A stretch of DNA of 55,120 nt from Bacteroidota bacterium (lineage in GTDB: Bacteria; Bacteroidota; Ignavibacteria; SZUA-365), in assembly GCA_014860565.1 (NCBI GenBank), contig JACZJN010000007.1, forward strand, positions 1 through 55,120, in the 5' to 3' direction. Below the pieces are notes generated by a model. That model saw nothing but the letters and a program-made list of their open reading frames with translations. It did no database searches and had not been told where the DNA came from. Of this stretch, positions 24,928 through 48,282 are shown in pieces. The first letter of the stretch is position 1. Each line of letters opens with the position of its first letter. The translations under genes were made by a program, and so were the position numbers.

Positions 24928-25074
24928 ATATATCACTTGGCTGGAAGAGAGATGGACAATATGTTTGATATTGCATCAAGAATCATGCCAATATGAGTCC
25001 TAGATGAATGTAAAAAGAACAATGGCTTGGATTTCACTCAATTACACGTTTTCAGAAGAATGCCGCCGCTCGCA

Positions 25075-25139
25075 TTTACCTTCTTGCCGTTCGGAATCCG
25101 TGCACTTGCCGCGCGGATTCCGGACGGCAGGAAGGTAAA
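25075..25139. repeat. Large imperfect inverted repeat downstream of protein B gene
   Basis: 25075-25100 pairs with 25114-25139 over 26 positions with two T/C differences, around a 13-base loop. It begins 11 bases after the stop codon of gene B on the minus strand. There is no T tract. It may be a transcript-end structure or a mobile palindrome. Confidence 0.6.
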
Positions 25140-25149
25140 CCATGATTAC

Positions 25150-26340: not shown

Positions 26341-26379
26341 CTTTTCTCCATGGGGTTTTGGATTTGTATGTTGGAAAGG

Positions 26380-26487
26380 GAACGGCGTTTTTCTCAAGGA
26401 GGGGAGATTTTTTCTGTATTGCACCCCGACTTTGCAAGTGAAGCAGTTTCTGAACCTGGGTCTGACCATTTGCGTGGTTGACGATCT
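26380..26487 (-). pseudogene. Relic of a T9SS cassette 3' end
   Basis: Minus-strand reading contains IVNHANGQTQVQKLLHLQSR, almost identical to the last 20 residues of proteins B and C, but nothing of the preceding cassette is attached. The flank with GGGAACGGCG and TCTCAA also matches the terminator region after gene C. The stop codon has been lost. The rest of the gap between genes B and C (26488-27161) shows no gene that I can support. Confidence 0.7.
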
Positions 26488-27156
26488 TGATATATCGATC
26501 GTCATGGTTGATGTACAAATTTCCCCTGAGATTTCAGAAATATGGCAATGCATCAAGAGAAGCAACAATCGGGCCAAACTGATTTGCACCTCGTAAGTTG
26601 CTGTCATTGAAGCATTTCTGCTGATTTGATTGACAGCAAAAGCCCCTAAAACAGAGTAAATTTGTCGTATTGTCAGTGGAATGCGAAGTAGGAGGCGAGT
26701 GCGTGCCGATGCGGCTCCTGGAGATGGCGGGCGGAAAGCCGAGTTCATGCTTAGCTGATGTATGCATCCGATTGCATATTCAGGTATTTGGTACCTATGA
26801 TACTGATGGTATCCGGCTCGTAATCTTTTCAGGGAGTTGATGAAGAGTCCGCAGTCACAAGGCGGGAGGAGGAAGAGTCGGATAGCGGTGTGTTGAGAAT
26901 TAAGGTGATGCGGGCAACAGTTGATGGGAAGTATTAATGCGGATGTCAGCGATCGGAAGTGCGCTCCAGAAAGTCTTCAATCCATTACCTATTCAGTCTG
27001 CTGTATAATGGGGTATGCAGCTGATTGAATAATCGGTTGGGAAGAGGGAAAATCAGGACGGCAAGCCTGATATTGAAAGAAGGTTTAAGTGAATACTGGC
27101 AAAAGCTGGAGGATTCCGACCATCGTCAGGCAGCCGAAAAATGTGGACGAACCTAT

Positions 27157-27191
27157 AAAAAAAGCGCCGATCCTGGGAGGGAACGGCGCTT
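27157..27191 (-). terminator. Rho-independent terminator after gene C
   Basis: AAGCGCCG (27162-27169) pairs with CGGCGCTT (27184-27191). On the minus strand the stem is followed by seven T residues (27157-27163). It lies 31 bases after the stop codon of gene C. Confidence 0.8.
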
Positions 27192-27222
27192 CATCTCAAA
27201 GCATAAGGGAATCAGCTGATAT

Positions 27223-28323
27223 CTATCGGCTCTGCAGGTGGAGCAGTTTCTGCACCTGTGTTTCGCCGTTTGCATGGTTGACGATCAGGAAGTAGCTGCC
27301 GTCGCGCAGATCCATTGTGGGAATGGTCATGGTCATGCTGCCGTCGGCAACGCCCTCGTAGAGCGTCGCGACCTTCTGCATGGCGCTGTTGTAGAGCGTA
27401 ATGGTGATCTGTTCGCTCGTGCCTGATGTGATATCGAGGTTCAGGTTGCCTGCGAAAGGCTGCGGATAGGCCGTCAGATTCACCGACGACGGGGCCGTGA
27501 GCGCCACGCGAAGGACATTGGAATACTCCGTCGTGCCGTCGCGATCTACCTGCTTGAGGCGATAGTACAGTTCAAGGGAGGAGCGGTCGAGCGTCTCATC
27601 GCGGAACGAGTATTGCCGCGGAACGAAACTCGTGCCATGGCCTTCGACAAACCCGAGCATGGACCAGTCGTCGCCATTCGTGCTTCGTTCGATCTCGAAA
27701 CCAAAATTGTTCAGCTCCGTGGCCGTCGTCCACTGCAGTTCCACCTGATCATCCTTGAGATATGAGCGGAAGGATGTAAGCTCGACTGGAACCGGGCCGC
27801 CTCCCGCGACAATATCATCGACATAGAAATTGTAAAAATTATTGCAATATATCCGGATATACCCTCCCGTTGGTACCGCGGTAGGGACGACATATGTTGC
27901 CCAGGAGCTTCCGAGATTCTGCGTGTAGTCGCTCCCTTGTTGATTGTGGGAGCTGTTGTAGATTCTCACCGTGAATTGTGGAGGATAACCCCACCAGTTC
28001 GCCTCTCGGGCTTTGAAAAGACAAGAACCAGAATTGAGCGGGCCAAATTCGATGTAGGTACCACTAACCTTCATCTCAAGCACGTTACCCTGGCCCGTGA
28101 AGGGAGATATTGCGTTGCCGAAATTAAGAAGAGTAGGATAATGTGGCATCCAATCCGAGATTGTATTCGGGTAAGCGCTCATCAATTGTTGTCCCGTTTG
28201 GAATGGGAAAGTGTACCACCCAAGATCCCCGGGAGTCGCCACTGCCTCGAAGTCTATTGTTTGACCCACGGAGGTCGTCGTAAGAACGAGAGACAGAATC
28301 AGTAATCGAAACATCGTATTCAT
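27223..28323 (-). CDS. Secreted T9SS cassette protein C
   Basis: A 366-residue exported protein with an AGGAGAAGCT site and a signal peptide of about 20 residues ending SVGQ. Unique cargo (about 21-175) has TYIEFGPLNSGSCLFKAR, FTVRIYNSS and GGYIRIYCNNFYNFYVDDIV, the same general layout as A, B and E but diverged in sequence, probably a jelly roll. The cassette from PVPVELTSFRSY is a mosaic of segments identical to protein B and segments that differ. The C-terminus is a T9SS type-A domain. Its own terminator follows. Cargo function unknown. Confidence 0.83.
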   Translation of the reverse strand: MNTMFRLLILSLVLTTTSVGQTIDFEAVATPGDLGWYTFPFQTGQQLMSAYPNTISDWMPHYPTLLNFGNAISPFTGQGNVLEMKVSGTYIEFGPLNSGSCLFKAREANWWGYPPQFTVRIYNSSHNQQGSDYTQNLGSSWATYVVPTAVPTGGYIRIYCNNFYNFYVDDIVAGGGPVPVELTSFRSYLKDDQVELQWTTATELNNFGFEIERSTNGDDWSMLGFVEGHGTSFVPRQYSFRDETLDRSSLELYYRLKQVDRDGTTEYSNVLRVALTAPSSVNLTAYPQPFAGNLNLDITSGTSEQITITLYNSAMQKVATLYEGVADGSMTMTIPTMDLRDGSYFLIVNHANGETQVQKLLHLQSR

Positions 28324-28879
28324 AGCTTCTCCTGAGAGTGATTTTAACGCACTCTCGTATTAAGATGCAATAATCGTGCCAAAAAGTCTCGATTTGCGAA
28401 TCTGAATCGCAACAGATACTCATTTCAATACGTTCGCGGTCACTTCCCCGAATCCGTACTGAAATGAATGATTTCCTCAATGGGATTCGAGGATCAACTC
28501 GATTTGATAAAACTCATTTCATTGCGGAATCCGAGCAGGTGTGTGCTCTGATATGCAAAACTCTGATGTATTTTATGTCGGGCTGCACGTCCCGTCTCTG
28601 TTAAAACAGAGTGCGTGCGAATATCGGACACATTAAAACTCAGATAAACACATCGCGGCCTGAATTGAACCTCCAACTAGGTAACGCGTTACAGCCCTCG
28701 TTTGAAGTACGGGTTTAAACGAAGGTAAGAATGAATCCAGGTAATGGAAGCAAGGCTATTCAATGAATTCCCTATGCAGTGAAATGATCAGCTGTGTGCA
28801 ATTGGTTGAATACTTTTTCCGGAGGGCGCGGAATTGCTCGGAAATGGTCGAAATCGCACAATATGGGGGTGCGACATGC
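28324..28879. other. Gap without a supported gene, upstream of gene C
   Basis: About 560 A/T-rich bases between gene C and the hairpin after gene D. They contain the 12-base palindrome GTAACGCGTTAC at 28681-28692 and no coding-like open frame. The promoter of gene C should lie near 28330-28400 but is not obvious. Confidence 0.5.
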
Positions 28880-28912
28880 CGAGCGGCCAGTCGATTCCCG
28901 GCTGGCCGCTCG
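28880..28912. repeat. Hairpin downstream of protease gene D
   Basis: CGAGCGGCCAG (28880-28890) pairs perfectly with CTGGCCGCTCG (28902-28912) around an 11-base loop, 27 bases after the stop codon of gene D. There is no T tract on the minus strand, so intrinsic termination is uncertain. Confidence 0.6.
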
Positions 28913-28939
28913 TATATGCAGAGAATGGAAGGGGTTGAA

Positions 28940-30634
28940 TCAGCGGATAACCATTATATGTTTTCGTATGACTTCTCCCTGATTCCTGTATTCGAGGAAG
29001 TAATTTCCTGGCGCGGCTGAGCTGAAAGAGAGCGGCAGCAGCTGCATGCCACTGCTCGCTGCGACGGATCGCGTGAATTGATCCAGCCGTTGTCCGGAAG
29101 CATCATACACGTGAAGCACGCCATCGCTGGCGTCCTGCAGTTGAAGCTGCACGGTCGCTTCGCCACGAACGGGCTGCGGGTACACCTGCATTTCCGTCGC
29201 CACCGGCCTCGAGGTGACCTCAACGATTGCGGAATAATCTGTTGTTCCGTCGGCATCGACCTGCATGAGCCGGTAATAGATCGTGTTTGCTCCGAACAGG
29301 TCGACTGCTCTGCGATCGGAATAGCTGTAGCTCCGCGGGGAGAAAACCGTGCCACCGCCAGCCACGAAATCGAGTTCTTCCCAGTTCTTCTTGTCGCCGG
29401 AGCGCTGGACGTAGAAGCCGAAATTCTGCAATTCCGTCGCGGTCTGCCATTTGAGCTGTACGTCTTTCTCCTGCAGTCGTGCCGAGAATGAAGTGAGTTC
29501 GACAGGGAGCGGATTGTTGACGTCGTCATCGACCTGCACGTTGAAGCGGGAGAGAATCGGACCGATGGGATTGATGAACGTATATCCGCCGGACTTTCCG
29601 AATACCAGACCGACCGGACGGTTCTGGGAGGTGTTGGTGACTACCAGGGAGCCGGAATCGCCGACATCCACGAAGGTCGAACTGCTGAAGGTGACAATCT
29701 GGTTGATGAAACGGGTAACCACACCGTAATTCATATTGATGGTTGCGTTGATGGCGACGACAGAAGTGGTGGTCAACCCGGTTGTCTTCCCGTACTTCTT
29801 CAGGCTCATGCTGACGGAAGCGACCGCAATGGTCGCGGAAGGAATGCCATATCCATCGGTCGGCGTTCTGTTTGAAACGATCCAGGGATCGACGCGCACC
29901 ATCGCGGCATCCATGAGATTGTTCGCGCTGGTCGAATGAATGATGGTTTCATAATCCGCCAGAAATCCGATAGTGTCGGCCGGGTATAGGTTGCATGACA
30001 CGTCGCCGCGTCCGGGCTGAACCACTTTTTCATTCAGCGCTGCGTAGTTGGTCCTCGCAAAGACATGGTTGCAGGACAGTATATAGTAGTTATTGCCGTT
30101 CCTGACACGCACGCCGATCGTCCCGCCGCTGCAATCGTTCCAGTTGCCGGTGGAGACGCCGATGGGCACGGGACGCTCAAGACGGCTCGTGCGGTCGACC
30201 GTTTCCTTTCGGAGTGCGAAGGATTTTGCGTAATCCGTCGTTGGCGCGGATGCAGCCAAAGGTTCGGGCGTGCCACAGACGTAAGTTACGACGGGTATCC
30301 CCGCGAGTTCGTGTGGAAGCGCCTTCGCCGCTTCTTCGGTCTCGGTGAAAATCACGAGCGCCGGAACTTTCTCTAATGTCATGCCTGTACCGAGGCCAAC
30401 CACCCCGTCGATTCCGAGCACCACGTCGGTGATGACATCCTGGATTTCCATGACATGACGAACCGCGGGATCATCGGGCGATAACGTGAATTCCGCTGCT
30501 TCATTGCCGTCCGACTGCTGAGAGAATGTCGGCAGGGGGCCTGTCAGAAAACACAAGGACAGTAACGCCGCGAAAAACAGTACTCGGCAGGAGGGTCTAT
30601 CCGTAACACTCCACGTCGTCCATTTCCTTTTCAT
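28940..30634 (-). CDS. Secreted trypsin-fold serine protease (NAL1-like) with T9SS cassette (protein D)
   Basis: A 564-residue exported protein; GGAGGAAGT precedes the ATG and a signal peptide ends near residue 39. Residues about 45-125 are an N-terminal domain with GVVGLGTGMT and PALVIFTE, typical of the region before NAL1-like trypsin folds. The protease domain (about 155-365) has a complete candidate triad: H190 in SCNHVFA, D242 in LMDAAMV and S327 in GDSGSLVV. The T9SS cassette begins at PLPVELTSF (about 375), with a fibronectin-like domain and sorting signal (YPQPVRGEATVQL). This is the only member of the array with recognisable enzymatic cargo. Substrate unknown. Confidence 0.82.
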   Translation of the reverse strand: MKRKWTTWSVTDRPSCRVLFFAALLSLCFLTGPLPTFSQQSDGNEAAEFTLSPDDPAVRHVMEIQDVITDVVLGIDGVVGLGTGMTLEKVPALVIFTETEEAAKALPHELAGIPVVTYVCGTPEPLAASAPTTDYAKSFALRKETVDRTSRLERPVPIGVSTGNWNDCSGGTIGVRVRNGNNYYILSCNHVFARTNYAALNEKVVQPGRGDVSCNLYPADTIGFLADYETIIHSTSANNLMDAAMVRVDPWIVSNRTPTDGYGIPSATIAVASVSMSLKKYGKTTGLTTTSVVAINATINMNYGVVTRFINQIVTFSSSTFVDVGDSGSLVVTNTSQNRPVGLVFGKSGGYTFINPIGPILSRFNVQVDDDVNNPLPVELTSFSARLQEKDVQLKWQTATELQNFGFYVQRSGDKKNWEELDFVAGGGTVFSPRSYSYSDRRAVDLFGANTIYYRLMQVDADGTTDYSAIVEVTSRPVATEMQVYPQPVRGEATVQLQLQDASDGVLHVYDASGQRLDQFTRSVAASSGMQLLPLSFSSAAPGNYFLEYRNQGEVIRKHIMVIR

Positions 30635-30842
30635 ACTTCCTCCAGAGATACTTCCTGTTCTTGAGAGCTGTCAATGAGCCGCGTGTCGCGAATCATTGTG
30701 TACAGCGCTCAATCTAGCGGCGGTACCTTTCGAGGGACTGAATTCTGGATTACAGCATGCTTACGAATCGCTTACAAGCTGTTCAGAAAGAATAATGGGG
30801 CGTAATCAGGCTGTTTTGTTGGGTTTTTCCGAGGACAGAGAT

Positions 30843-30872
30843 AAAAAAAACCACCCGCGTGCGGGTGGTTTT
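30843..30872 (-). terminator. Rho-independent terminator after gene E
   Basis: AAAACCACCCGC (30847-30858) pairs with GCGGGTGGTTTT (30861-30872). On the minus strand the stem runs into eight T residues. It ends 24 bases from the stop codon of gene E. Confidence 0.88.
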
Positions 30873-30895
30873 GATCGTCCGAGGCAGAAATATTA

Positions 30896-32146
30896 TCAGC
30901 GGTTGGTCATCTTTATGATCTTTTTCACCACGGGAGCCTCTGCACCTGCACGAACCACGAGGAAATAATTTCCATCCATCAGGTCGGCAGTGGGATAGGA
31001 AAGAGTCATGATACCCTGAACAGGGCCGTCATGCAGTGTTGCGACATCCTGCAGCAAATTGTTGTACAGTTTGACGCTCATGTACTCCTCTTCCTTTGCG
31101 CCGATTTGAACCTGCAAGGAATTATCGAAGGGCTGAGGGAAGGTATTCAGCAGGAGCGAGGCCGGGGTTGCCGATGCTCGGTCTGCCCTTACAATGGCTG
31201 AATAATCGCTCGTTCCGTCACGATCGATCTGATGCAGACGATAGAAAACCGCCCCGGAAGACCAGTCTGGTGTCCCATCCAGATACTCGTATTTTTTCGG
31301 CGAGAAGGTAGTCCCGAATCCCGCAACGAAGCCGATTTCCTTCCAGCTGTCACGATCCGTGCTGCGTTCGATCTTGAAGCCGTAGTTATTGAGTTCCGTG
31401 GACGTAGTCCAGTTCAGGCGCACGACGTCGTCGAGCACCGAACAGCGGAATGAAGTGAGCTCGACGGGGAGTGCATTCGGCTCGAAGGAAATGTTGTCGA
31501 TCTCGAAGTTGCCACTGGGGCGATTACAATTACTTGTTCCGCCGTACAGTGAACTGCGCGTGAGGCGGACGTATCCACCGTTCGGGACCGTGGAGTTATA
31601 GAACGCGGTAGTAGAGCCGGTACTGCCCACATCAAAAAATTGACCGCTGGAGTCAGGATAAAAGAATGGCGCACCAAGGATCGTTCCAGGGTACGGGTTT
31701 TTGTTGGCATCGAGCGTCGTGACACGCATGGTGCCATGAGCGCCGCCTCCAATACCGTACATCGTAAAGATGAAGGACCCATTCAATCCATAGGGAAAGG
31801 GTCCGAACTCGATGAAGTCTCTCGGGTTTTCAAAGAATAAACGGCGATCCGGACGCCTGTTAGAGCCAGCGTTTGAGATGCTTAATTCACCATTCGCCGG
31901 GAACGTCCCACTATAACAAAATTGAGTATGCGACTCCCCACCAAATCTGGAAATGATGGGATGCGCAGCGATGAGACGCCGCCCATTTGTCAGATTTGGT
32001 TGCGTCATAGCTGGGGGATACCATGCTCCGAGAGACCCAGTAGTCAGGTTGATCCCATCAAAAGTAATCATCGTCGTCTGCGCGGACAGAGGACTGGCCA
32101 TTGCCGTGAGCAGAACGAGAGCTATTATCAATACAGAAATGCGCAT
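30896..32146 (-). CDS. Secreted T9SS cassette protein E
   Basis: A 416-residue exported protein, the upstream-most member of the minus-strand array. GAGGAGAC precedes the ATG; the signal peptide ends LSAQ. Unique cargo (about 24-220) includes RDFIEFGPFPYGLNGSFIF, GTMRVTTLDANKN, GGYVRLTRSS and NFEIDNISFE, the same IEFGP...IDNI layout as A-C. The cassette from LPVELTSFRC is clearly related but more diverged, with a T9SS end (FPQPFDNSLQV, LMDGNYFLVV). It has its own terminator. Cargo function unknown; a surface adhesin or binding module is possible. Confidence 0.82.
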   Translation of the reverse strand: MRISVLIIALVLLTAMASPLSAQTTMITFDGINLTTGSLGAWYPPAMTQPNLTNGRRLIAAHPIISRFGGESHTQFCYSGTFPANGELSISNAGSNRRPDRRLFFENPRDFIEFGPFPYGLNGSFIFTMYGIGGGAHGTMRVTTLDANKNPYPGTILGAPFFYPDSSGQFFDVGSTGSTTAFYNSTVPNGGYVRLTRSSLYGGTSNCNRPSGNFEIDNISFEPNALPVELTSFRCSVLDDVVRLNWTTSTELNNYGFKIERSTDRDSWKEIGFVAGFGTTFSPKKYEYLDGTPDWSSGAVFYRLHQIDRDGTSDYSAIVRADRASATPASLLLNTFPQPFDNSLQVQIGAKEEEYMSVKLYNNLLQDVATLHDGPVQGIMTLSYPTADLMDGNYFLVVRAGAEAPVVKKIIKMTNR

Positions 32147-32852: not shown

Positions 32853-35800
32853 ATGACCCGAACGCCTGTTTTTTCCAGAGCATGGACAATATTTCTCCTC
32901 ACCTCCCGACTGCTGGTCCCGGCAGCCGTGGGGGCGCTTTCGTTTTCCGCACAGGCGCAGAATCTCCTCGAACCCCACGGCAAGGTTGTCTTCGAGAGGC
33001 TTTCGGTGGAGGAGGGACTCTCGCAGGGGACCGTGCGATGCATGCTTCAAGACAATGACGGATTTCTGTGGGTGGGGACGGAAGACGGTCTGAACAAATA
33101 CGACGGCTACACCTTCTCTCACTATCATCATCACCTCAACGATCCCCGCAGTATCAGCGACAACACGATCAACGCGCTGCTGCTGACCGCCGATGGAGCG
33201 TTGTGGATCGGAACGAATGACGGATTGAATCGATTCGATCCGGTCACCGAACACTTCGGGCATTTTCGCCACGATCCAGCGAACGATGGCAGCCTGAGTG
33301 ATAACCGTGTGTATTCGCTTCTCGAGGGGGTGGATGGCGCGCTCTGGGTGGGCACCTTCAACGGACTCAACCGGCTTGATCGTGCCACGGGTCGATTCCG
33401 TCGCTATCAGCACGGACTCGGAGAGAGGGGTATGCCCGAATATGAAAGCGTGACCGCGCTCGGTCTCGAACCGTCGCAGCACGGAAATACGCTGCTCGTG
33501 GGGACCTGGGGTTCCGGCCTTCTGCGATTCGACCCGCGTGGGGGCCGTTTCGAGCGCATATTCAGCGACCTGGCGCCGCGCTCGGAGCAGGAGCGCTCCT
33601 GGGTCAATCAGATCTATACCACCAGAGAGGGCGAGGTACTGGTGGCCGACGGGAATCTGTCCACCTATGATCCCGTGAACAGGCAACTGCGCCACCATTG
33701 GCCGCGGCGCGATGCGGACGATGATCGCGGCGTGCAGAGCATTCTGAAAACCAGCGACGGTTCGCTCTACGCAGGTCTGCAGCATGACCTGGGCCTCGTG
33801 AAGTTGGATGCGTCGTTCCGCTTCGTCCGCGGCTTCAGTAACGACGTCCACGACGCTACCAGCCTGAGCCAGGGATGGGTGTTCTGCCTCTTCGAAGATC
33901 GCGGCGGCGTGATTTGGATCGGAACAGGCGATGGACTCAGCAAACTGATTCCCTCGCAGCAGCGATTTCTGAATTACGCGCCCGATCCGGCGATCGCCAA
34001 CAGCCTCAGCGGTGGACAGGTTACGGCCGTGCTCGTCACCAAAACCGGGGCGGTCTGGATCGGCACGCGACGCGATGGCATCACCGTCGTGGACAAGGCC
34101 CACGGCAAGGTCACATATTACCGCGGACAGCCGGGACGCAAGGGAGCGCTCAACACCGATGAAATCATTTCGCTCGCCGAAGACAGCCGCGGGCACATAT
34201 GGGTAGGAACATGGGGCGGAGGTTTGAATCTGTTCGACCCGAAGGCGGGCGCGTTTCGGGCCTATAGGATGAATCCGACCAAGCCTGCGAGTGTGCCGGA
34301 CGATTTCATTGGAGCGATATGCGAAAGCCGGCGTGGCGAACTCTGGATCGGGACACCCAATGGCGTCGGCGTGTTGAACCTCGATTCCATCGAGGCTGGA
34401 CAGTTCCGCGTGTTCCGCCATCGTCCGGGCGACAGCACGTCTCTCGGCGACCGACGGGCCGATGCCATATTCGAAGACAGCCGCGGCGCGATCTGGATCG
34501 GGACCTGGTCGGGAGGACTCAGCCGATTTGACCGGGAGTCGGGGCGATTCACACAATTCAGACATGAACCCTATGATTCGACCACCCTCAGCAGCAACAA
34601 GGTGCTCTGTTTTGCCGAGGACCGGAAGGGGAATCTCTGGATCGGGACCTGGGGTGGCGGACTCGATCGGTATGATCGCAGCCACAACCGCTTTATTCAC
34701 TTCACCGAGGATTCCGGCTTGCCGAACGCTCAGGTCGTATCCATCGTCGAGGATTGGAAAGACCGGCTCTGGGTAGCGACCAACAACGGACTCTCTCGCT
34801 TCGACGCGGATCGGCGTGGCTTTCGGAACTTCGACCTGAGGGACGGTCTTCCCGGCTACCGCTATGGACATGAGGCAATGGCCGCTGATGCGCGCTCTGG
34901 CGAAATATGGGTCGGAGGCCGCATCGGCGTCACCATGTTTCATCCAGACAGTATTGAAGGTCCTGCAAAACCGCCGCCCGTTACCCTGACCGCGATTCAC
35001 ATCACCCGGTTGAGTGAGGGTCAGAGCAGGACGATTGCGTTGACAGGAAGTTCGGCAATAGACTCACTGATCCTGACTGCCTCAGATAATATCGTATCCA
35101 TCGAATTCGCCGCGCTCGATTTTCGCAATCCGAAAAAAAATGAATACGCGTGGAAGCTTGAGGGCTTTCAGGAGAGCTGGGTGCCGATCGGGACGCGGCG
35201 CGAATTGACGTTCACCGACCTGAGCCCGGGCACGTATATGCTGTACCTGCGAGGTGCCAACAGCGACGGCGTGTGGAGTACGTTGGGGCGAGTCCTGACC
35301 ATCACCGTGCTGCCACCCTGGTGGAGAACGACCATTGCATACCTGTTATACATCTGCGTGTTTCTCTCTCTGATCCTCCTGTTCATAGGCGGTATGCGTC
35401 GGCGCATCATGCGGAAGGAACGTGCACAGCTCGACCTTCTCGAATCCGAATTGCGCTTTCAGACAATCGCGGCGCAATCGCGGGCGCTGCAGTCGGAGAA
35501 TGAGCGCAAGGAACTGGAACTGCAGAAAGCGGAGGAATTACGCAGCGCGTATCAGGCGCTCGAGGACGCCCATGAATTTCTGAAGTCCGCGCAGACAAGG
35601 CTTTCGGGCATCCTTGCACTCGCATCCGACGCGTTTATTTCCGTTGATGGAAATCAGCTGATCACGCTCTTTAACAGCACCGCCGAACAGGTGTTCGGCT
35701 ACAGCGAGGCCGAACTCCTCGGAAAGCCCCTGCAGCAGCTCCTCCCCGATGCATTCGTGTCCGAACAGGTGAAGCTTGCCGCCGCGGAACATGCCGATGA

Positions 35801-37679
35801 AGCCAGCCGGCGAATCGCGGAGAATCTGCGTCTCTGGGGGCGGCGGAAGAATGGCGAGACCTTCCATGCGGAGGCGTCGATTTCCCGACTCGAGCTTGCC
35901 GGTGAGGTGATCTTTACCGTGATGCTGCGCGACATAACACGAAGGCTGCGGACGCAGGAGCAGCTTGAACAACTCTCGCGAGCGGTGGAGCAGAGCCCTG
36001 GTATCGTCATCATCACGAATACCGCAGGGGATATCGAATACGTGAATCCGAAATTCACTGAGGTGAGCGGCTACACTTTCGAAGAAATCGCAGGACGGAA
36101 TCCGCGACTGCTCAAATCGGAATTCACACAGAAAACAGTTTACGTCGACATGTGGCAGACGCTCCGCTCAGGGAAGGAGTGGAGGGGAGAATTGCGGAAC
36201 CAAAGGAAGGACGGTTCGGCGTACTGGGTCTCCAGTTCCGTTTCCTCTATCAAGAACAGTGACGGGGAAGTGACGCATTACATCGGTATCCAGGAGGATA
36301 TCACTTCCAGGAAGGAAACGGAAGAGAAGTTGCTGCAGCACACGGAAGATCTCGAGATGATCAACCGTATCGTCAAGACCGTGAATCGGGAATTCGATTT
36401 AATGCGCCTGATCCGCATGCTGCTCGAGCAGGGAATGGCCCTGCTGCCGTGGGCCGATTCAGGCGCAGTGCTGATTCGTGAAGAACCAGAAAAACCATTC
36501 CGACTCGTCGACGTCATAGGAATGGACCGCGACGCGTCCTGGGAAGAAATCTCCGAGGAGGACATCGCCGAGGGGCTGCTCTCGGGTGCCTCCGCGATCA
36601 AGGAAGGGCTGTACATCGTCGAGGGGCAGTCGACTCCGCAGGAGGATGAGAAATGCGGTCTGGGAGGCCTGTATACGCTGCTTGCCCTGGAAGTGCACTG
36701 GACCGGCGTAGAGCAGGAACTGCAGCACGCCAGTTATATCGTTTTCGGAAGCCACGCGGAGAATACCAGAATTACGGGAAAGGATGTGGTTCGCATCAGC
36801 CATTTCCGGGAGCACGCCGTTTCAGCGCTCGCGAAAGCGTCGGCCATGCGTGTGCTGCAGGACAAGAACAACGAACTGCTTCGCACGCAGGAGCAATTGA
36901 TCATGCAGCAGAAAATGGCGTCGCTCGGGCAGCTGACGGCAGGTATTGCGCATGAAATCCGTAATCCTCTCAACTTTGTCAACAACTTCGCCATCAGCGC
37001 CATCGAGTTGATCGCGGAGATTCAGGAGGCAACGGCGAAAGGGGAAGAAACCCACGAGATGTTCGAAGACCTGCGCCTCGCCTCCGAACGCATTCTCGAC
37101 CACGGGAAACGCGCCAACAGCATCGTCGATTCCATGCTGCTTCACGCCCGGAGAAACACCGGCATTCGTCAGAGCATGAATATCAACGCCATGCTTGAGG
37201 AGGCGGCGAACCTCGCGTATCACGGCATGCGCGCCCGGGTTTCCGATTTCACCGTCAACATCGTCCGCCAATTCGACGACAACGTCCCGGAGCTGCACGG
37301 CGTGCAGCAGGATATCAGCAGGGTGTTCCTGAATCTGCTCAACAACGCTCTGTTCGCCGTGCGGGAGAAAAAGGAAGTCCAGCCCAGCGGGTCGCCGTTC
37401 GTGCCGGAAGTCGTCGTCAGGAGCACGGCGGACGATCGGTACGTCGAAGTGCGGATAAGCGATAACGGGATGGGAATATCCCCAGAAGCGGTCGACCAGA
37501 TCTTCCAGCCCTTTTACACCACTAAAACTTCCGGAGAGGGCACGGGCCTCGGCCTCTCACTCAGCTACGACATCATCGTCAACGGTTATGGAGGGGAACT
37601 GTTCGTCGACCAGGACTATAAGGACGGCGCCGCGTTCGTCATTCGTTTGCCGATCCGGGGGAGTGCACACCCGTCGTGA
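32853..37679 (+). CDS. Giant sensor histidine kinase with two-component propellers, PAS and GAF-like domains
   Basis: A 1608-residue transmembrane kinase. After a signal peptide (residues about 1-36) come at least eleven Reg_prop blades such as GALWIGTNDGLNRFD, forming one or two large periplasmic propellers (about 50-700), then a Y_Y_Y domain (about 745-820), one transmembrane segment (about 827-849), a coiled coil, two PAS domains (about 918-1035 and 1036-1155), a GAF-like region (about 1170-1340), HisKA with H1367 in GIAHEIRNP, and HATPase_c (N box NLLNNALFAV, GTGLGLSLS). No receiver or DNA-binding domain is fused, unlike many Bacteroidota hybrid regulators, and no response regulator lies next to it. 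Related sensors respond to glycans. Confidence 0.9.
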   Translation: MTRTPVFSRAWTIFLLTSRLLVPAAVGALSFSAQAQNLLEPHGKVVFERLSVEEGLSQGTVRCMLQDNDGFLWVGTEDGLNKYDGYTFSHYHHHLNDPRSISDNTINALLLTADGALWIGTNDGLNRFDPVTEHFGHFRHDPANDGSLSDNRVYSLLEGVDGALWVGTFNGLNRLDRATGRFRRYQHGLGERGMPEYESVTALGLEPSQHGNTLLVGTWGSGLLRFDPRGGRFERIFSDLAPRSEQERSWVNQIYTTREGEVLVADGNLSTYDPVNRQLRHHWPRRDADDDRGVQSILKTSDGSLYAGLQHDLGLVKLDASFRFVRGFSNDVHDATSLSQGWVFCLFEDRGGVIWIGTGDGLSKLIPSQQRFLNYAPDPAIANSLSGGQVTAVLVTKTGAVWIGTRRDGITVVDKAHGKVTYYRGQPGRKGALNTDEIISLAEDSRGHIWVGTWGGGLNLFDPKAGAFRAYRMNPTKPASVPDDFIGAICESRRGELWIGTPNGVGVLNLDSIEAGQFRVFRHRPGDSTSLGDRRADAIFEDSRGAIWIGTWSGGLSRFDRESGRFTQFRHEPYDSTTLSSNKVLCFAEDRKGNLWIGTWGGGLDRYDRSHNRFIHFTEDSGLPNAQVVSIVEDWKDRLWVATNNGLSRFDADRRGFRNFDLRDGLPGYRYGHEAMAADARSGEIWVGGRIGVTMFHPDSIEGPAKPPPVTLTAIHITRLSEGQSRTIALTGSSAIDSLILTASDNIVSIEFAALDFRNPKKNEYAWKLEGFQESWVPIGTRRELTFTDLSPGTYMLYLRGANSDGVWSTLGRVLTITVLPPWWRTTIAYLLYICVFLSLILLFIGGMRRRIMRKERAQLDLLESELRFQTIAAQSRALQSENERKELELQKAEELRSAYQALEDAHEFLKSAQTRLSGILALASDAFISVDGNQLITLFNSTAEQVFGYSEAELLGKPLQQLLPDAFVSEQVKLAAAEHADEASRRIAENLRLWGRRKNGETFHAEASISRLELAGEVIFTVMLRDITRRLRTQEQLEQLSRAVEQSPGIVIITNTAGDIEYVNPKFTEVSGYTFEEIAGRNPRLLKSEFTQKTVYVDMWQTLRSGKEWRGELRNQRKDGSAYWVSSSVSSIKNSDGEVTHYIGIQEDITSRKETEEKLLQHTEDLEMINRIVKTVNREFDLMRLIRMLLEQGMALLPWADSGAVLIREEPEKPFRLVDVIGMDRDASWEEISEEDIAEGLLSGASAIKEGLYIVEGQSTPQEDEKCGLGGLYTLLALEVHWTGVEQELQHASYIVFGSHAENTRITGKDVVRISHFREHAVSALAKASAMRVLQDKNNELLRTQEQLIMQQKMASLGQLTAGIAHEIRNPLNFVNNFAISAIELIAEIQEATAKGEETHEMFEDLRLASERILDHGKRANSIVDSMLLHARRNTGIRQSMNINAMLEEAANLAYHGMRARVSDFTVNIVRQFDDNVPELHGVQQDISRVFLNLLNNALFAVREKKEVQPSGSPFVPEVVVRSTADDRYVEVRISDNGMGISPEAVDQIFQPFYTTKTSGEGTGLGLSLSYDIIVNGYGGELFVDQDYKDGAAFVIRLPIRGSAHPS

Positions 37680-41575: not shown

Positions 41576-41677
41576 ATGTATTTCAGGAAGGCAAGACCGC
41601 AAATCGTTGTGATTGGGAATAAGCAGGGAAAAATGCTTTTGTGTATATTTACATACTCACCACGAACTGCGAACCCA

Positions 41678-43972
41678 ATGCCCCAGCACAGCGTCCCTCA
41701 AAAAGTGGAAACGAGATCTGCGTCTTTCCTGCGCTTCCGGTCACTGATGATAGTCGCTTCACTCAGTGTAATGGTCTGCCAGTGTGTTGCCCAGGAGCGG
41801 CTTTCACTCGATTTGGAAGAGGGAAAATCCGGTGCAGTCTGGAATCTCGTCCTGGGCGTGGACGGCAAAACGCTTTTCTCATGCGGGCGCGATTCCACAG
41901 CCAAATCATGGGATCTGGCGACGGGCGAAGCCATCCGGATGTTCAAGGCGGCGCAGCCGACGCTGATCACCTCCCTCGCGCTCGATCACACGGGCAACTG
42001 GCTGGCGCTGGGCGATATGAACGGCCGGTTGACCTTGTGGAACGCCCATAGCGGCGTGCAGTATTATGACCTTCCTGCGCACCAGCAATACATGACCTCC
42101 CTCGCCATAACACCGGATGCTGCGACGGTGATCACTGCCGGACGGGACGGCAGCATCAGCTCCTGGAAACTCGACGACGGGAGTGCCCGCTGGAGCATTG
42201 ACGCGGCAGCGCTTTGGATCAACGCCGTCGCTGTCTCCCCTGACGGTGCGTTCCTCGCCTCGGCAGGACAAGACGGTAGCGTGAGCCTCTGGCGCATCAG
42301 CGACGGCAAAAAGGAAGCCGATCTGGGGCGCCACAGCCGCTTTGCCCGTACGGTGCTGTTTTCTCAAGACGGCAAGTATCTGTTTTCCGCGGGGGCGGAC
42401 GGACGCATCCTGGTCTGGGACATGCAGACGCGGGCGCCGTTTCGCGACATCGAGCTCGACGGTGGATATGCGCATGGACTCGCCCTCGATCGCGGCGGCG
42501 ACGTGCTGCTGGTCAGCAAGATGAACGGGCTGCTGGAGCTGTGGGACTGGAAGCGCCGCATGATCAAGAAGAAACTTTCCGGAGATTCATACGGTACAAT
42601 GTCCGCTGTTTTTTCTGCCAACGACGAGCGCCTCTACAGCGCGCATACCAGCGGAGCGATCAAAGTGTGGACGACCGAAGACGGTTCTCTTCTTCTCGAC
42701 ATGGTCGGGTTCAGCGACGGACAATGGCTTTCGTTTACTCCTGACGGCTATTATGACTGCTCTTCGTATGGAGACCGTTATGTGCGTTGGCGGCGGGGCG
42801 AGGAGCTGTTTCCCCTCGAGCGCTACAGCGAACTCTATCACCGTCCCTCAATCATCGAGGACGTGCTGCGCGGCGGGTACAAGCCCGCGGGCAGCCTTGA
42901 GACCGTCGTCGATCCTCCCGTCGCTGAGATGCTCTCGCCCCGCGATGGCCAGCTGTTTGCCTTCGGGAGCGAGGCGTTGGAAGTGGTCGTGGAAGTGGTC
43001 GCCACGGATATCAGCAGCATCGAAAACATCGCGCTGCTGCTCAACGACCGTCAGTTGACGCGCGAGCAGCTCATCGATTGGACGGTTGTCGAAAAAAGCG
43101 CGACGCAGCTTCACGTGCGCTGCCGCATGCACGTGCTCCCCGGGAAAAACAGCATCGAGGCCGTGGCGTTCAACGCATCGCGGGGGCGCAGCGCGAAGGT
43201 CCGTGCCGACATCACGGTGGAGACCAGCACGCGCATCAATCCGAGCCTGTACGTGCTCGCGGTGGGTTCCGACAGTTACGCGCCGGCATACCCCGATCTG
43301 CAGTTCGCCAGTGTCGACGCCGAGGCGCTTGCCGACGAGCTTGCGCGTCAGGAGGGCGGCATGTACGCCCGCGTCTATACGCGCGCAATTACGGGCAAGA
43401 ATGTTACAAAGGAGGGGATATTCAGCGCGCTGAAGGAATTCGGAGAAATGAAGCCGGAAGACGTGCTCGTTCTTTTTTTCAGCGGCCATGGCGTGCGTGA
43501 GCGTGACAAGAAGGGCCGCACGAAGTATTATTACCTCCCGGCCGGGACGACGAAAAAAACCGTGACGAGCCGGGGGCTTGCGTGGGAAGATTTCTCCGCG
43601 GAAATCGCGCACCTCAACGCCGGGCGCATCATCCTGCTGCTCGACGCCTGCCACTCGGGCGATGTGAGCAGCGGCGCCTCGAATGAGAAAGTCGCCTCGT
43701 CGCTTGCCGGACAAGTGGGGGTGGTCTTCACCAGCAGTTCGGGCAACGAATATTCCTATGAAGACCGGAGCTGGGGACATGGCGCATTTACAAAGGCGCT
43801 GCTTGACGGCATTCGTGGCGCCGCGGATTTCACTGCGGATAAAACCATCGACTGGGGTGAACTCCAACTCTATGTCGGAACAGCAGTGCGAACGATGACC
43901 AAGGGCGGTCAGAATCCGATGGTACCCCGCCTCGAACAATTTGCAAACTTCGATTTTGTGAGAGTACGATGA
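41678..43972 (+). CDS. Exported WD40-caspase (peptidase C14) protein
   Basis: A 764-residue protein. The ATG at 41678 is chosen because the open frame upstream to 41576 overlaps a relic gene; a membrane segment at about 18-38 ending CVAQ predicts export. Residues about 45-370 contain seven or so WD40 repeats (GRDSTAKSWDLATGE, GQDGSVSLWRISDGK), a beta-propeller for protein recognition. An Ig-like linker (about 410-520) leads to a caspase-like domain (about 525-764) with H604 in FFSGHGVRE and C658 in LLLDACHSG, the complete dyad of metacaspase-type proteases. Its stop overlaps the next gene by four bases. The target is unknown. Confidence 0.88.
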   Translation: MPQHSVPQKVETRSASFLRFRSLMIVASLSVMVCQCVAQERLSLDLEEGKSGAVWNLVLGVDGKTLFSCGRDSTAKSWDLATGEAIRMFKAAQPTLITSLALDHTGNWLALGDMNGRLTLWNAHSGVQYYDLPAHQQYMTSLAITPDAATVITAGRDGSISSWKLDDGSARWSIDAAALWINAVAVSPDGAFLASAGQDGSVSLWRISDGKKEADLGRHSRFARTVLFSQDGKYLFSAGADGRILVWDMQTRAPFRDIELDGGYAHGLALDRGGDVLLVSKMNGLLELWDWKRRMIKKKLSGDSYGTMSAVFSANDERLYSAHTSGAIKVWTTEDGSLLLDMVGFSDGQWLSFTPDGYYDCSSYGDRYVRWRRGEELFPLERYSELYHRPSIIEDVLRGGYKPAGSLETVVDPPVAEMLSPRDGQLFAFGSEALEVVVEVVATDISSIENIALLLNDRQLTREQLIDWTVVEKSATQLHVRCRMHVLPGKNSIEAVAFNASRGRSAKVRADITVETSTRINPSLYVLAVGSDSYAPAYPDLQFASVDAEALADELARQEGGMYARVYTRAITGKNVTKEGIFSALKEFGEMKPEDVLVLFFSGHGVRERDKKGRTKYYYLPAGTTKKTVTSRGLAWEDFSAEIAHLNAGRIILLLDACHSGDVSSGASNEKVASSLAGQVGVVFTSSSGNEYSYEDRSWGHGAFTKALLDGIRGAADFTADKTIDWGELQLYVGTAVRTMTKGGQNPMVPRLEQFANFDFVRVR

Positions 43973-44997
43973 TGCGATCCATACGCTTTCTCCTCCTTGT
44001 GACGATTTCCCTCTCGGCAATTTCCTCGCTCCATGCCGACGAACCCCGGAAAGAAGTCGCCCTCGTGACGGCTGTCAGCGGCAGTGTGACCGTACGAAGC
44101 GACGAAACCGAGAAACCACTCGCCCTCGGCATGCGCCTCCTTCTTGGAGATGAAGTCATTGTGACGAACGGCAAGGTGTCGCTGGTGTTTTTCGCCGGCG
44201 ATTTCCTTTCGCTCAAGGATGGCGAGCGTCTTGCGCTTGGTGCGACGCCGAAGGAAAGCATGCTCACGACGGGAGGTGCGACACGTGGACTCGGTCCCGA
44301 CGACGCCATGACGGTCACGGACAAGGGACTCAACACCAACGGTGACAGCCGTGTCTGGCAGGCGCAGCTTGCATCGGTTTCCGGTATTCGCGGCGACGGC
44401 ATGCCGATCGCCGTCGCGCCGCGCCTCGCTATCGCGGGTGAAAACCCCACATTCTACTGGTTCGACACAGACACCAGCGGCGCGGGGGGCGAACGCAATT
44501 ATACACTGGTGCTGAAGAATGAGGAGAATGCCGTGCTCGCGCGGCAGCGGGTCCGCGGTGTTGCCGGAAGGCTCAACAGCTTCCGTTTCGACCAGGTGCC
44601 TGCCGGATTTTCCGCCACTCCCCGCATGCATTTCAATTGGACCGTGCTGCCCGATGGCGCGGTGGTGCCCGACGGGCAGCTCGATGCTGCCTTTGTCTTC
44701 ATCGACAAAGCGGGAATGGATGCGACGAAGTCGCAGGTGCTGCGGCTGCGGGAGATGGAGGAAAAAGGACAGATCGATCAGATTTCCTCGCACACACTGC
44801 TCTGCGCGCTTTTCCTTGATGAGCGGGAGCGGCTCTTCTCCGATGGCCTTCCGCATCTGCTTGCCCTCGCGGCCTTGCCGGAAGGCGAGGCGTACGCGGG
44901 TGAGCAGATCGCAAGGATGTTTCTGCGCTTCGGCAATCAGGTTGCCACGCTCGCGCCGCTCTTCCTCAGCGCACCCGGAGCGTATATCCTCAAATGA
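43969..44997 (+). CDS. Secreted FecR-like domain protein
   Basis: A 342-residue protein with a signal peptide (about 1-23, ending LHAD). Residues about 30-100 form a FecR-type beta domain (LVTAVSGSVTVRSDETEKPL, LLLGDEVIVTNGKVSLVF, DFLSLKDGERLALG); here it is a soluble exported form, not an anti-sigma factor with a transmembrane anchor. The remainder contains an Ig-like region (NPTFYWFDTD, NYTLVLKNEE) and a helical tail. It overlaps both neighbours by four bases (43969-43972 and 44994-44997), which strongly suggests coupled translation and a shared task with the two caspase-fold proteins. Possibly an adaptor or sensor (inference). Confidence 0.8.
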   Translation: MMRSIRFLLLVTISLSAISSLHADEPRKEVALVTAVSGSVTVRSDETEKPLALGMRLLLGDEVIVTNGKVSLVFFAGDFLSLKDGERLALGATPKESMLTTGGATRGLGPDDAMTVTDKGLNTNGDSRVWQAQLASVSGIRGDGMPIAVAPRLAIAGENPTFYWFDTDTSGAGGERNYTLVLKNEENAVLARQRVRGVAGRLNSFRFDQVPAGFSATPRMHFNWTVLPDGAVVPDGQLDAAFVFIDKAGMDATKSQVLRLREMEEKGQIDQISSHTLLCALFLDERERLFSDGLPHLLALAALPEGEAYAGEQIARMFLRFGNQVATLAPLFLSAPGAYILK

Positions 44998-47408
44998 CAC
45001 GCCGTATTCCCGTATCCATTCTTTCCGCGATTCTTTTTCTTGCAGCATGCAGCGGCGGGGGGGATGTGCTGCGCGAAGACCCGCGCATCACCGAAGGCCG
45101 CTCGCTATATGATCGCGCCGATTTTGATCGGGCGGAAAGGCATTTTACCGGGCTGCGGGACGAAGCAGCGGGTACGGAAGATTTGCTATTGGAGGCGCAG
45201 GCGGAAAAGTGGCTGGGGAGCATTCAACTCGCGTATGAGCAGTCGGAGACCGCGCTGCTGCATTACCGCCGCAGCCTGGCGCTGCTCGAAGGCGGCATCA
45301 GCCGGGGCGACAGTCTGCATACACCCGTCGATCGTCGGTGGTTTGACGAGCGGCAGAATGTGCTCAGCAACGTCGGTGTGGTTTTCAAGGGTGCGCATCG
45401 GTATCAGGAAGCCGAAGAACTATTTCGCGGCGTGCTTGCCTACGACAGTGCACGCGGTGATGATTACCGCACCGCGATATCCCTGTATAATCTCGGAGAC
45501 GTGTATCACCAGCATGCGGTCGTACAGCTCTCGGCCAACGACAGCAGCGCCGCGGTGCGACTGCATCAGCAGGCACGCAGCTGCTTCCTCCGTTCTCTCG
45601 CGCAGTATCCCACCGCCGATGCCTGGCTGAATCTCGGTAACAACTACACCCTCGATAACTCCCTCGACAGTGCGATTATTTGCTATCACCGGGCGGAAGA
45701 GATGTACGCGCGCAGCGGATTCCGTGTGCATCGCGCCCTGGCACTGGGCAACATCGGCGTGCTGGCGCAGCGGATGGGTCGACGCGACGAGGCGCAGCGC
45801 GTTCTCGAGCAGAGCATTGACATCATCGAGGAGCTTCGAGGCAACCTCTCCTCCGTCGATGTCCGTACCAGCTTCGTTTCGAACAAGTTCTACATTTATG
45901 AAAACCTGATCGAGATCCTCATCGCAAACGGGGAAGTCACACGTGCGTTCGAGTACGTGGAGCGTGCCAAGGCGCGGTCCTTCCTCGATCTGATCGGCAA
46001 CAAGGCCGTGGGACAGGGGAAGGAGCGTCCACCGGACGTAGAACGGCTCGTCCAGCGTGAGCAGGAACTGCAGCAGCGGATCTCCCGATTGATCAGCGAC
46101 ACCGACAGCAGCGACGGACTCGGCGCCGCCATCACCGAGCATCAGCGCGTGCTGGCCGAACTGCGCGAAAAAGATCCGGATTATGCCTCGGTCAAGAGCA
46201 TTGATCCCGTGCCGGTGCAGCAGCTGCAGTCGATGCTCGACGACAGCACCGCGGTGCTGGAATACTTCGTCGGACAGTCCTCCTCCTTTGTCTTTCTCGT
46301 ACGCCGCGACACCATTCTCGTGCAGCCGATTTCCATCGACCCGGAGTTCAAGCTGGAGAAGGTGATCGAACAGCTGCGGCGCAAGCTGTATTATGATTTC
46401 CCGACGAAGAAGATCGGGTTTATCCGTGAACAGCGCCTTGGAAAGAACGCAAGCAGTGAAGAGGCGCTGCGCGCCTGGTACGCGGAGCCTTCGGATGACA
46501 GCTGGCAATACGATCTCGTAACAATGTATTCGCTGCTTGTCGCCCCTGTGGCGCCGGCACTGCACGGCATCACCCAGCTGTACGTCGTGCCGCATGGACC
46601 GCTGCATCATCTGCCGTTTCAGGCACTGGTCAATCCCATGCATATCGATATGGGGACGGGCCGGCACATGGCGCGTCCCCGCTACCTGATCGAGGATTTC
46701 GCCATCGCGTATCTTCCTTCCGCGAGCGTACTCAGCTTCGCATTGAAGAAGAACATTCATCGCGCGACGACGGCGCTGATCATCGGTGATCCTCTCTACG
46801 CCGATCCGAAATACCGTCGGCGTCCGCTCGACGGAGCGTTGATCGAAGCCGACACCGTTGCGCACTACGCCACCGACGCGCTCGTGCTCAAGCGCGAAGC
46901 CGCCGAGGAAAGCGTGGTGAAGAGCATCATGGGAACACGCGACATCCTGCATTTTGCAACACACGGCGAGTTGAACAAGGAGGATCCGATGCAGTCGCGC
47001 ATTCTGCTCGCCGCCGCGCATCCCGACAGTGTCAACAACGGCAACCTGACCGTGGCGAAAATTTTCAACCTCGATCTTGATGCCGTGCTTGTGACGCTCA
47101 GCGCCTGCCAGACCGCGCAGCTTTCCGGCGCGGAGGGAGGGTTCACCGCGGGAGACGATCTCGTGGGACTGACACGTTCCTTCATGTACGCAGGCACGCC
47201 GTCGGTGGTCGCCTCGCTCTGGGTCGTCGACGACGAAGCGACGCTCACATGGATGCGCAATTTCTACCGCGCCTGGCTGCGCGGAGGCCAGAGCAAGATG
47301 CAGGCCGCCCGCCGCGCCGCACTGGACATGCTCGCGCAGACCGACGATGCGGATTGGACCTTCCCTTACTACTGGGCCGCTTTCGTCTACCTCGGCGACG
47401 CACGATAG
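44994..47408 (+). CDS. TPR-CHAT protease lipoprotein
   Basis: An 804-residue protein. A lipobox LAAC at about residues 16-19 predicts attachment to the envelope. Residues about 30-330 are tetratricopeptide repeats (AISLYNLGDVYHQH, ALALGNIGVLAQRMGRRDEA), then a helical linker, then a CHAT domain (about 480-804) with YVVPHGPLHHLPFQAL, H657 in ILHFATHGE and C705 in VTLSACQTAQ, the separase/caspase-like dyad. The C-terminal signature includes GLTRSFMYAGTPSVVASLW. The CHAT fold is shared with the Craspase subunit, but that is cytosolic and there is no Cas7-11-like gene here. Last gene of the coupled trio. Confidence 0.88.
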   Translation: MTRRIPVSILSAILFLAACSGGGDVLREDPRITEGRSLYDRADFDRAERHFTGLRDEAAGTEDLLLEAQAEKWLGSIQLAYEQSETALLHYRRSLALLEGGISRGDSLHTPVDRRWFDERQNVLSNVGVVFKGAHRYQEAEELFRGVLAYDSARGDDYRTAISLYNLGDVYHQHAVVQLSANDSSAAVRLHQQARSCFLRSLAQYPTADAWLNLGNNYTLDNSLDSAIICYHRAEEMYARSGFRVHRALALGNIGVLAQRMGRRDEAQRVLEQSIDIIEELRGNLSSVDVRTSFVSNKFYIYENLIEILIANGEVTRAFEYVERAKARSFLDLIGNKAVGQGKERPPDVERLVQREQELQQRISRLISDTDSSDGLGAAITEHQRVLAELREKDPDYASVKSIDPVPVQQLQSMLDDSTAVLEYFVGQSSSFVFLVRRDTILVQPISIDPEFKLEKVIEQLRRKLYYDFPTKKIGFIREQRLGKNASSEEALRAWYAEPSDDSWQYDLVTMYSLLVAPVAPALHGITQLYVVPHGPLHHLPFQALVNPMHIDMGTGRHMARPRYLIEDFAIAYLPSASVLSFALKKNIHRATTALIIGDPLYADPKYRRRPLDGALIEADTVAHYATDALVLKREAAEESVVKSIMGTRDILHFATHGELNKEDPMQSRILLAAAHPDSVNNGNLTVAKIFNLDLDAVLVTLSACQTAQLSGAEGGFTAGDDLVGLTRSFMYAGTPSVVASLWVVDDEATLTWMRNFYRAWLRGGQSKMQAARRAALDMLAQTDDADWTFPYYWAAFVYLGDAR

Positions 47409-47450
47409 GTCACGCCGCGCGTGTCGACGCAGGACATAGGAATCCGATGT

Positions 47451-47534
47451 CCCCCTCTCCTTCCAGGAGAGGCGGAGCAGGGGGTGAGGTTCGCCTCTCC
47501 TGGAAGGAGAGGGGGAGCAGGGGGTGAGGTTCGG
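47451..47534. repeat. Palindromic repeat with two 19-bp direct copies
   Basis: A perfect 24-bp inverted repeat (47451-47474 with 47492-47515) encloses 17 bases. The segment GAGCAGGGGGTGAGGTTCG occurs at 47475-47493 and again at 47516-47534. It lies between the CHAT gene and the next gene. Palindromes of this CTCTCC/GGAGAG...GGGGTGAGG type are familiar as dispersed intergenic repeats in many bacteria. Confidence 0.85.
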
Positions 47535-47613
47535 CGGAACCCACCAATTGCTCATATCGTAGAACAAGGATACTTTGCATTTTCAATTCGCGATCCGTAT
47601 TCGGAGGCAAGTC

Positions 47614-48282
47614 ATGAAGCATTTCATTCTGTTATTCCTCTTTCTCGGTGTGGGACTGAATGTCGGCAGTGCGGTTGCGCAGGAAAAATCATCCACCCTC
47701 GGCAAGCCCATTTTTCCCAAGCTCGAGTACGTGAATCTGAACGCCGAACTCGGTTTCGAGGCGGAGATCCTTCGCGGTTTCGGTGCGAGAGTCGACGACG
47801 CCCGGCGCGATGCCGACGGCGCCGCGGTCGCCGCGCAGGCGGTGCTCTTGAGCTTCGCGGAAAAACTGGCAGGAAAGAAAGCGCAGACCGTGACGGCGAC
47901 ACAGCTGCTCGCCGAGGCCGCTCGCATCGCGGAGGAACAGCAGAATCGCGGCGCCGTGACCGCGGTCGAAAGCGCGGGCACGTATATCCCCGGCAGCGAG
48001 GTCGTGGTGCAGCGGCTGATCGAAGCGACTGCGTTATTTGCCGAAAATCGAGGCGATGGGGAGTTTCTCGGTTTCGTCCGCATCGTCAATGATTGCGACA
48101 GACTGCTTGACATTTATATTGATGGGAAATACGTCGGCTTCCAGTACGGAGGCGATGACATAGTGTATTCCACCGGCAACGGCACGACGCATGCACGTGT
48201 GACCGACGCCTTCGGCAACACCGTCAGCGAAGTGCTGTTTGTGAAGCCGGACGAAACCATGACATGGACGATCAAACCCTGA
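47614..48282 (+). CDS. Secreted protein of unknown function
   Basis: A 222-residue exported protein. The ATG at 47614 follows GGAGG at 8 bases and opens a signal peptide of about 23 residues ending AVAQ; an upstream frame start at 47575 is less likely. Residues about 45-150 are helical and Ala-rich (AEILRGFGARVDDARRDADG, LLAEAARIAEEQQNRG); residues 155-222 form a small beta domain (FVRIVNDCDRLLDIYIDGKY, VTDAFGNTVSEVLFV). No family recognised. It follows the caspase/CHAT trio by 205 bases, and its end overlaps folC by 19 bases. Confidence 0.75.
   Translation: MKHFILLFLFLGVGLNVGSAVAQEKSSTLGKPIFPKLEYVNLNAELGFEAEILRGFGARVDDARRDADGAAVAAQAVLLSFAEKLAGKKAQTVTATQLLAEAARIAEEQQNRGAVTAVESAGTYIPGSEVVVQRLIEATALFAENRGDGEFLGFVRIVNDCDRLLDIYIDGKYVGFQYGGDDIVYSTGNGTTHARVTDAFGNTVSEVLFVKPDETMTWTIKP

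Follow-up and report, generated by a model that had tools for sequence, protein, structure and literature searches.

What might two different caspase-fold proteases do when a bacterium encodes both in one operon, together with a FecR-like protein, and all three appear to be exported? Such an operon lies in a 55,120-nucleotide stretch of DNA (hereafter the window) from a Bacteroidota bacterium of the class Ignavibacteria (contig JACZJN010000007.1, assembly GCA_014860565.1). To our knowledge, nearly all that is known of caspase-fold and CHAT proteases in bacteria concerns effectors of the cytosol, and the only precedents that we know for a CHAT protein acting on a caspase are likewise cytosolic. 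A literature search found no description of the caspase-FecR-CHAT layout. We therefore asked how tightly the three genes belong together, what the middle protein is, and which biological role best accounts for the combination.

The three genes, here called CASP, FECR and CHAT, follow one another on the + strand and encode proteins of 798, 342 and 804 aa, respectively (Table 1). Both junctions are 4-base ATGA overlaps, GTACGATGATGC at 43969-43972 between CASP and FECR and AATGAC at 44994-44997 between FECR and CHAT, in agreement with the coupling of the three genes described in the initial annotation. That annotation began CASP at 41678, which is an in-frame ATG but an internal one, 34 codons into the 798-aa open reading frame that starts at 41576; the catalytic residues then numbered H604 and C658 are therefore H638 and C692 in the full-length frame. 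Judged from its sequence, CASP-FECR-CHAT is one tightly coupled unit.

Table 1. Coordinates of the features discussed (window positions, unless a separate locus is named).
Feature	Position	Strand	Basis or remark
CASP, exported (predicted) WD40 beta-propeller and Peptidase_C14 caspase-fold protease	41576..43972	+	alternative starts 41678 or 41747
WD40 repeat region of CASP, residues 83-366 of the 798-aa ORF	41822..42673	+	Pfam
Caspase domain of CASP	43253..43924	+	Pfam C14
CASP catalytic His codon, H638 (initially H604)	43487..43489	+	invariant
CASP catalytic Cys codon, C692 (initially C658), motif DACHSG	43649..43651	+	invariant
FECR, putative MtxA-like adaptor with signal peptide (FecR/retention-type beta domain, Ig-like domain, short TPR)	43969..44997	+	predicted structure
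FecR/retention-type beta domain of FECR, residues 27-120	44047..44328	+	structure match and profile match
MtxA-C-like Ig and TPR part of FECR, residues 145-336	44401..44976	+	4z29, Z 9.8, 160 residues, rmsd 3.8
CHAT, TPR-CHAT protease with lipoprotein signal	44994..47408	+	Pfam and alignment
CHAT lipobox Cys19 codon (LAAC|S)	45048..45050	+	invariant
CHAT domain	46521..47399	+	Pfam
CHAT catalytic His657 codon	46962..46964	+	alignment
CHAT catalytic Cys705 codon	47106..47108	+	alignment
Perfect GC-rich hairpin downstream of CHAT, before ORF4; the unit probably ends here	47440..47545	+	-78 kcal/mol, z -8.1
ORF4, signal-peptide protein, usual downstream neighbour	47617..48282	+	outside the minimal unit
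WD40-caspase - DUF4384 - CHASE2-cyclase operon, L134	5938-11056
WD40-caspase - DUF4384 - CHASE2-cyclase operon, L142	5027-10099
WD40-caspase - DUF4384 - CHASE2-cyclase operon, L143	5995-11206

Both proteases appear to be catalytically competent members of their families. CASP combines WD40 repeats with a Peptidase_C14 domain well above the Pfam cut-off (residues 560-783, E 2.7e-15, 57.2 bits against 21.4), and it is the sole Pfam C14 match in the source genome. Its H638 (in SGHG) and C692 (in DACHSG) are invariant among all homologues covering these positions; with both the domain and the dyad in place, CASP belongs to peptidase family C14. CHAT, one of two CHAT proteins in the source genome, carries TPR repeats followed by a CHAT domain (residues 510-802, E 4e-63, 214 bits, cut-off 24), and its H657 (in ATHGEL) and C705 (in LSACQT) are kept in 14 of 14 homologues, which identifies it as a CHAT protease. 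The two dyads reported in the initial annotation thus remain intact in every homologue whose sequence extends over them, even where identity drops to 43-47%.

The N-termini point to a location outside the cytosol. Every CASP homologue with a complete N-terminus begins with a hydrophobic segment that has an AQ/QQ-like site at its end, and the corresponding FECR homologues start with a hydrophobic segment of the signal-peptide type. In CHAT, the hydrophobic segment is followed by a lipobox cysteine, Cys19, that is invariant in all 14 homologues, as predicted for a bacterial lipoprotein; four CHAT homologues contain two cysteines in total, that of the lipobox and that of the active site. The export signals initially proposed for all three proteins are therefore also predicted in their homologues, and neither CASP nor CHAT is predicted to be cytosolic. 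Export of the trio is strongly indicated by these signals.

The identity of the middle protein was less apparent. FECR gave no notable Pfam match, and the Pfam FecR profile (PF04773) had zero matches at E<=1 among 14 members of the FECR family. However, the N-terminal ~97 columns of the family matched a true FecR protein by profile comparison (E 1.3e-6), and NCBIfam returned a LapA retention match that falls below its cut-off; the two results agree on the first domain. An AlphaFold2 model was then built from an alignment of the window sequence and fetched homologues (mean pLDDT 77.8, pTM 0.75). In this model, residues 27-120 resemble the retention domain 5ix9 (Z 9.7, 74/76 residues, 24% identity). 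The segment 145-336 superimposes on 4z29, the C-terminal half of MtxA, with 160 of 169 residues aligned by VIA-align (Table 1); the remaining structure comparisons gave Z <=5.5. The same structure, 4z29, was the top Foldseek full-domain match of the model. The "FecR-type" label initially given to this protein thus suits its FecR/retention-type beta domain, but the protein lies outside the Pfam FecR cut-off. As a whole, the fold match of its Ig-like and TPR C-terminal part to the MtxA crystal structure goes beyond a FecR-like protein and suggests that FECR is an MtxA-like three-domain protein.

MtxA comprises a signal peptide, an N domain, an Ig-like domain (142-226) and TPR repeats (227-313), and in magnetotactic and related alphaproteobacteria a gene for a CHASE2-adenylate cyclase comes after mtxA (PMC4439547). 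The predicted build of FECR is similar, with a signal peptide, an N-terminal domain, an Ig-like domain, a short TPR and a modelled C-terminal fold that matches 4z29, and MtxA, too, is encoded in an operon with signalling genes. The partners differ, being a caspase and a CHAT protease for FECR and a CHASE2 cyclase for MtxA.

Two further ideas about FECR were considered and set aside. DUF928 as the C-terminal half had no match in the FECR family, and the E of 0.057 that it reached in 4/13 members of the CHASE2-partner family described below is a hint only. FECR residues TRG105-107, Q133 and R141 are invariant and lie inside or beside a low-confidence stretch of the model. A conserved protease cut site in this linker was rejected: the invariant R141 belongs to the general FecR "VRG" signature, and its invariance is therefore no evidence for such a site.

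A relative of FECR is found next to the only CHASE2 gene of the source genome, which overlaps by 4 bases a gene for a 307-aa protein (P307) of the same general build. Comparison of the two families by hhalign (probability 99.1, E 1.3e-18, 267 columns) indicates that they are homologous. When PDB chains were searched by hmmsearch with the profiles of both families, 4z29 (MtxA) was not returned. The CHASE2-P307 pair recurs in other genomes of the order that were read; in one of these loci (L154), the partner was not seen within the mapped stretch. In the source genome (contig C197, L140 4206-7168), the cytoplasmic C-terminal part of the CHASE2 protein has no Pfam match, and the partner has the FecR-like/Ig/TPR arrangement; the pair lacks a recognised output domain. 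The suggestion in the initial annotation of a sensing or adaptor partner is strengthened by these comparisons, as FECR appears both MtxA-like and homologous to the CHASE2 partner of its own genome. A comparable operon in Burkholderia encodes an exported FecR/LysM protein and a CHASE2 histidine kinase, BiofilmReg (PMC5192318). It likewise joins an exported FecR-domain protein to a CHASE2 receptor, and a related pair is present elsewhere in the source genome; however, it contains no proteases, whereas the trio operon contains no CHASE2 gene.

Relatives of the two proteases occur in similar surroundings. Related families of the class carry an operon of a WD40-caspase, a DUF4384 protein and a CHASE2-cyclase (Table 1), and among the matches listed, the caspase and CHASE2 genes are spaced 0.8-1.0 kb apart by coordinates in at least nine genomes. 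We know of no description of this operon. It shares with the trio the WD40-caspase architecture and the presence of envelope signalling genes, but it includes a CHASE2 cyclase and lacks both CHAT and the MtxA-like protein. In two f21 genomes, CHAT genes face a FecR - P807 - CHASE2-cyclase set, in which P807 is probably an outer-membrane type protein; full-length adaptor relatives in the f21 genomes are not located beside CHAT or caspase genes. The divergent arrangement of CHAT and P362 - FecR - P807 - CHASE2-adenylate cyclase was observed at L066 (3642-13764) and at L130/L145, and L066 also includes ORF4. Relatives of CASP, FECR and CHAT alike are thus found beside genes of the CHASE2/FecR envelope signalling families. 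That FECR is a sibling of a CHASE2-sensor partner suggests a protease signalling unit of the envelope rather than one inside the cell.

To establish how far the arrangement extends, we searched related genomes with the middle protein. FECR was present in 15/16 genomes of one order and gave no match in the 45 other relatives sampled from the class. In the 16th genome, CASP runs to a contig end and CHAT opens another contig, with ORF4, FolC and Rho behind it; contig ends fall at the expected place of FECR, so the assembly accounts for its absence. Within the limits of the contigs, the three genes keep the same order and strand in every sampled genome of the order, indicating that the layout is more than chance. 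In nearly all genomes, neighbouring genes of the trio overlap or are a few bases apart, with 207 bases between FECR and CHAT in one. On the 3' side, a thiolase gene usually comes after ORF4, FolC and Rho. G007, a complete genome, keeps the three genes together despite ORF4 lying ~214 kb away; the trio is therefore the unit.

Outside this order, no trio was found in a sample of 395 genomes of the phylum. The conserved gene order that would be expected of a functional unit is thus borne out within one order of uncultured genomes, whose public titles are Bacteroidetes, Ignavibacteria or Chlorobiota MAGs, and it stops at that order. Plasmid searches returned relatives of CHAT and of the caspase at 22-30% identity (cyanobacteria, azospirilla and others) and no FECR match, and four annotated loci from these searches that were read had neither FecR nor a caspase-CHAT pair. 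CHAT matches outside the order mostly cover the domain alone, and relatives of the caspase, CHAT and FecR occur there in differing combinations. On these sequence comparisons, the trio is inherited strictly vertically; it is built of already known parts, and the combination is new. One public record, PABJ01000068.1 (L045), is titled Ectothiorhodospiraceae and carries the trio in the FolC-Rho context; it is probably mislabelled.

Together, these observations lead us to a reading to which we assign about an even chance: the trio would be a vertically inherited envelope unit in which an MtxA-like adaptor holds together and controls two cysteine proteases of clan CD type, both active. FECR and the lipid-anchored CHAT would sit on a membrane, facing the periplasm or the surface, and would sense an envelope condition, while the Ig/TPR part of FECR may dock either protease or both. 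A signal would then release one protease or activate it, perhaps through the other, to cut envelope substrates, so that a protease output would take the place of the CHASE2-cyclase output of related loci. A more speculative proposal, which we regard as unlikely, is a periplasmic caspase pathway: proteolysis would pass in two steps between CHAT and the WD40-caspase, across or along the envelope, under the gating of an MtxA/FecR-like adaptor of the kind that serves CHASE2 receptors elsewhere. In such a pathway, a basic-specific orthocaspase might cut FECR at its domain junction, where the invariant Arg141 lies in a loop of predicted disorder; this arginine is, however, also part of the FecR signature.

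Two independent envelope processing enzymes would be a simpler explanation than a signalling unit. CASP and CHAT might be co-expressed yet act separately in envelope housekeeping or surface-protein processing, for example in maturing type IX-secreted proteins, with the adaptor binding one or neither. Clan CD proteases with envelope or T9SS roles exist (PorU, gingipains), the source genome has at least 150 matches to T9SS C-terminal sorting domains, and each genome of the order carries the trio as it would a core gene. However, Pfam found no Por_Secre_tail in CASP, FECR or CHAT, so none of the three has the mark of a T9SS cargo, and among the loci read, it is CHASE2 signalling genes, not those of the T9SS, that repeatedly neighbour relatives of the three proteins. 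We consider independent action possible, if doubtful.

A defence or abortive-infection role is far harder to reconcile with the data. Here CHAT would activate the caspase, and the cell would be killed or arrested, as in the SAVED-CHAT/PCaspase cascade, a CRISPR pathway of the cytosol that a second messenger drives. The published CHAT-to-caspase relation speaks for such a role (Steens et al. 2024, Science, cited in PMC11417357), as do NCBIfam matches to Csx29 (36.6 bits, cut-off 300) and to an EACC1-associated caspase, both weak and below cut-off. In the Steens et al. system, a CHAT protease and a caspase-family protease, SAVED-CHAT and PCaspase of type III-B CRISPR, reportedly act in one pathway. 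The trio, in contrast, is predicted to be exported and has no CRISPR gene; Pfam found no SAVED, CARF or NTPase sensor in it, CHAT consisting of TPR and CHAT domains only. Likewise, the Craspase protein Csx29 shares with CHAT the TPR-CHAT architecture and the His/Cys dyad, but Csx29 is cytosolic and RNA-guided, whereas CHAT is a predicted lipoprotein. PADLOC assigned generic caspase/TPR families only and matched no described defence system, and the trio is found throughout the order in a constant neighbourhood with FolC and Rho rather than scattered among defence islands. Its vertical inheritance, its N-terminal export signals and the absence of any sensor of the defence type together argue against a cytosolic anti-phage cascade, which we judge highly improbable.

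We are equally sceptical that the proteins are surface-exposed or secreted enzymes that act on neighbouring cells, in fratricide or as an aid to predation. The export signals would fit, and a 2012 survey raises a role of this kind for exported metacaspases (PMC3501461), but both a toxin/immunity pair and a surface-sorting signal are absent, and inheritance is strictly vertical. That the two protease folds are inactive scaffolds has nothing specific in its favour and, with both dyads invariant down to the lowest identities given above, deserves next to no credence.

The trio is of interest because it links exported caspase and CHAT proteases with the MtxA, FecR and CHASE2 families. If the adaptor-controlled envelope unit is correct, a core exported protease pair tied to these families would assign them both a place in the envelope and a tangible output. 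The pair would also open a way towards the function of the MtxA-like, FecR-CHASE2 and DUF4384-CHASE2 operons, which are widely recurrent in the class.

Several features of the flanks were also noted. Shorter copies of an arm of the hairpin downstream of CHAT are present on three other contigs, and the element might represent either a terminator or a repeat of the REP-like kind. ORF4 has a helical part and a C-terminal beta-sandwich and belongs to no Pfam family; a structure search gave common beta-sandwich matches only (AlgF, VHL; Z about 8). It was considered as a member of the unit and rejected on its 19-base overlap with FolC in most genomes of the order, its distant position in G007 and the strong hairpin that precedes it. 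Elsewhere in the window, a run of related secreted proteins with Por_Secre_tail sorting tails is encoded at 23803-32146 (- strand) and also at 467-2599. A very large propeller-Y_Y_Y-PAS-histidine kinase is encoded at 32853-37679, and also at L021 (3776-8704); in genome G001, its homologue immediately precedes the caspase gene and has the same orientation.
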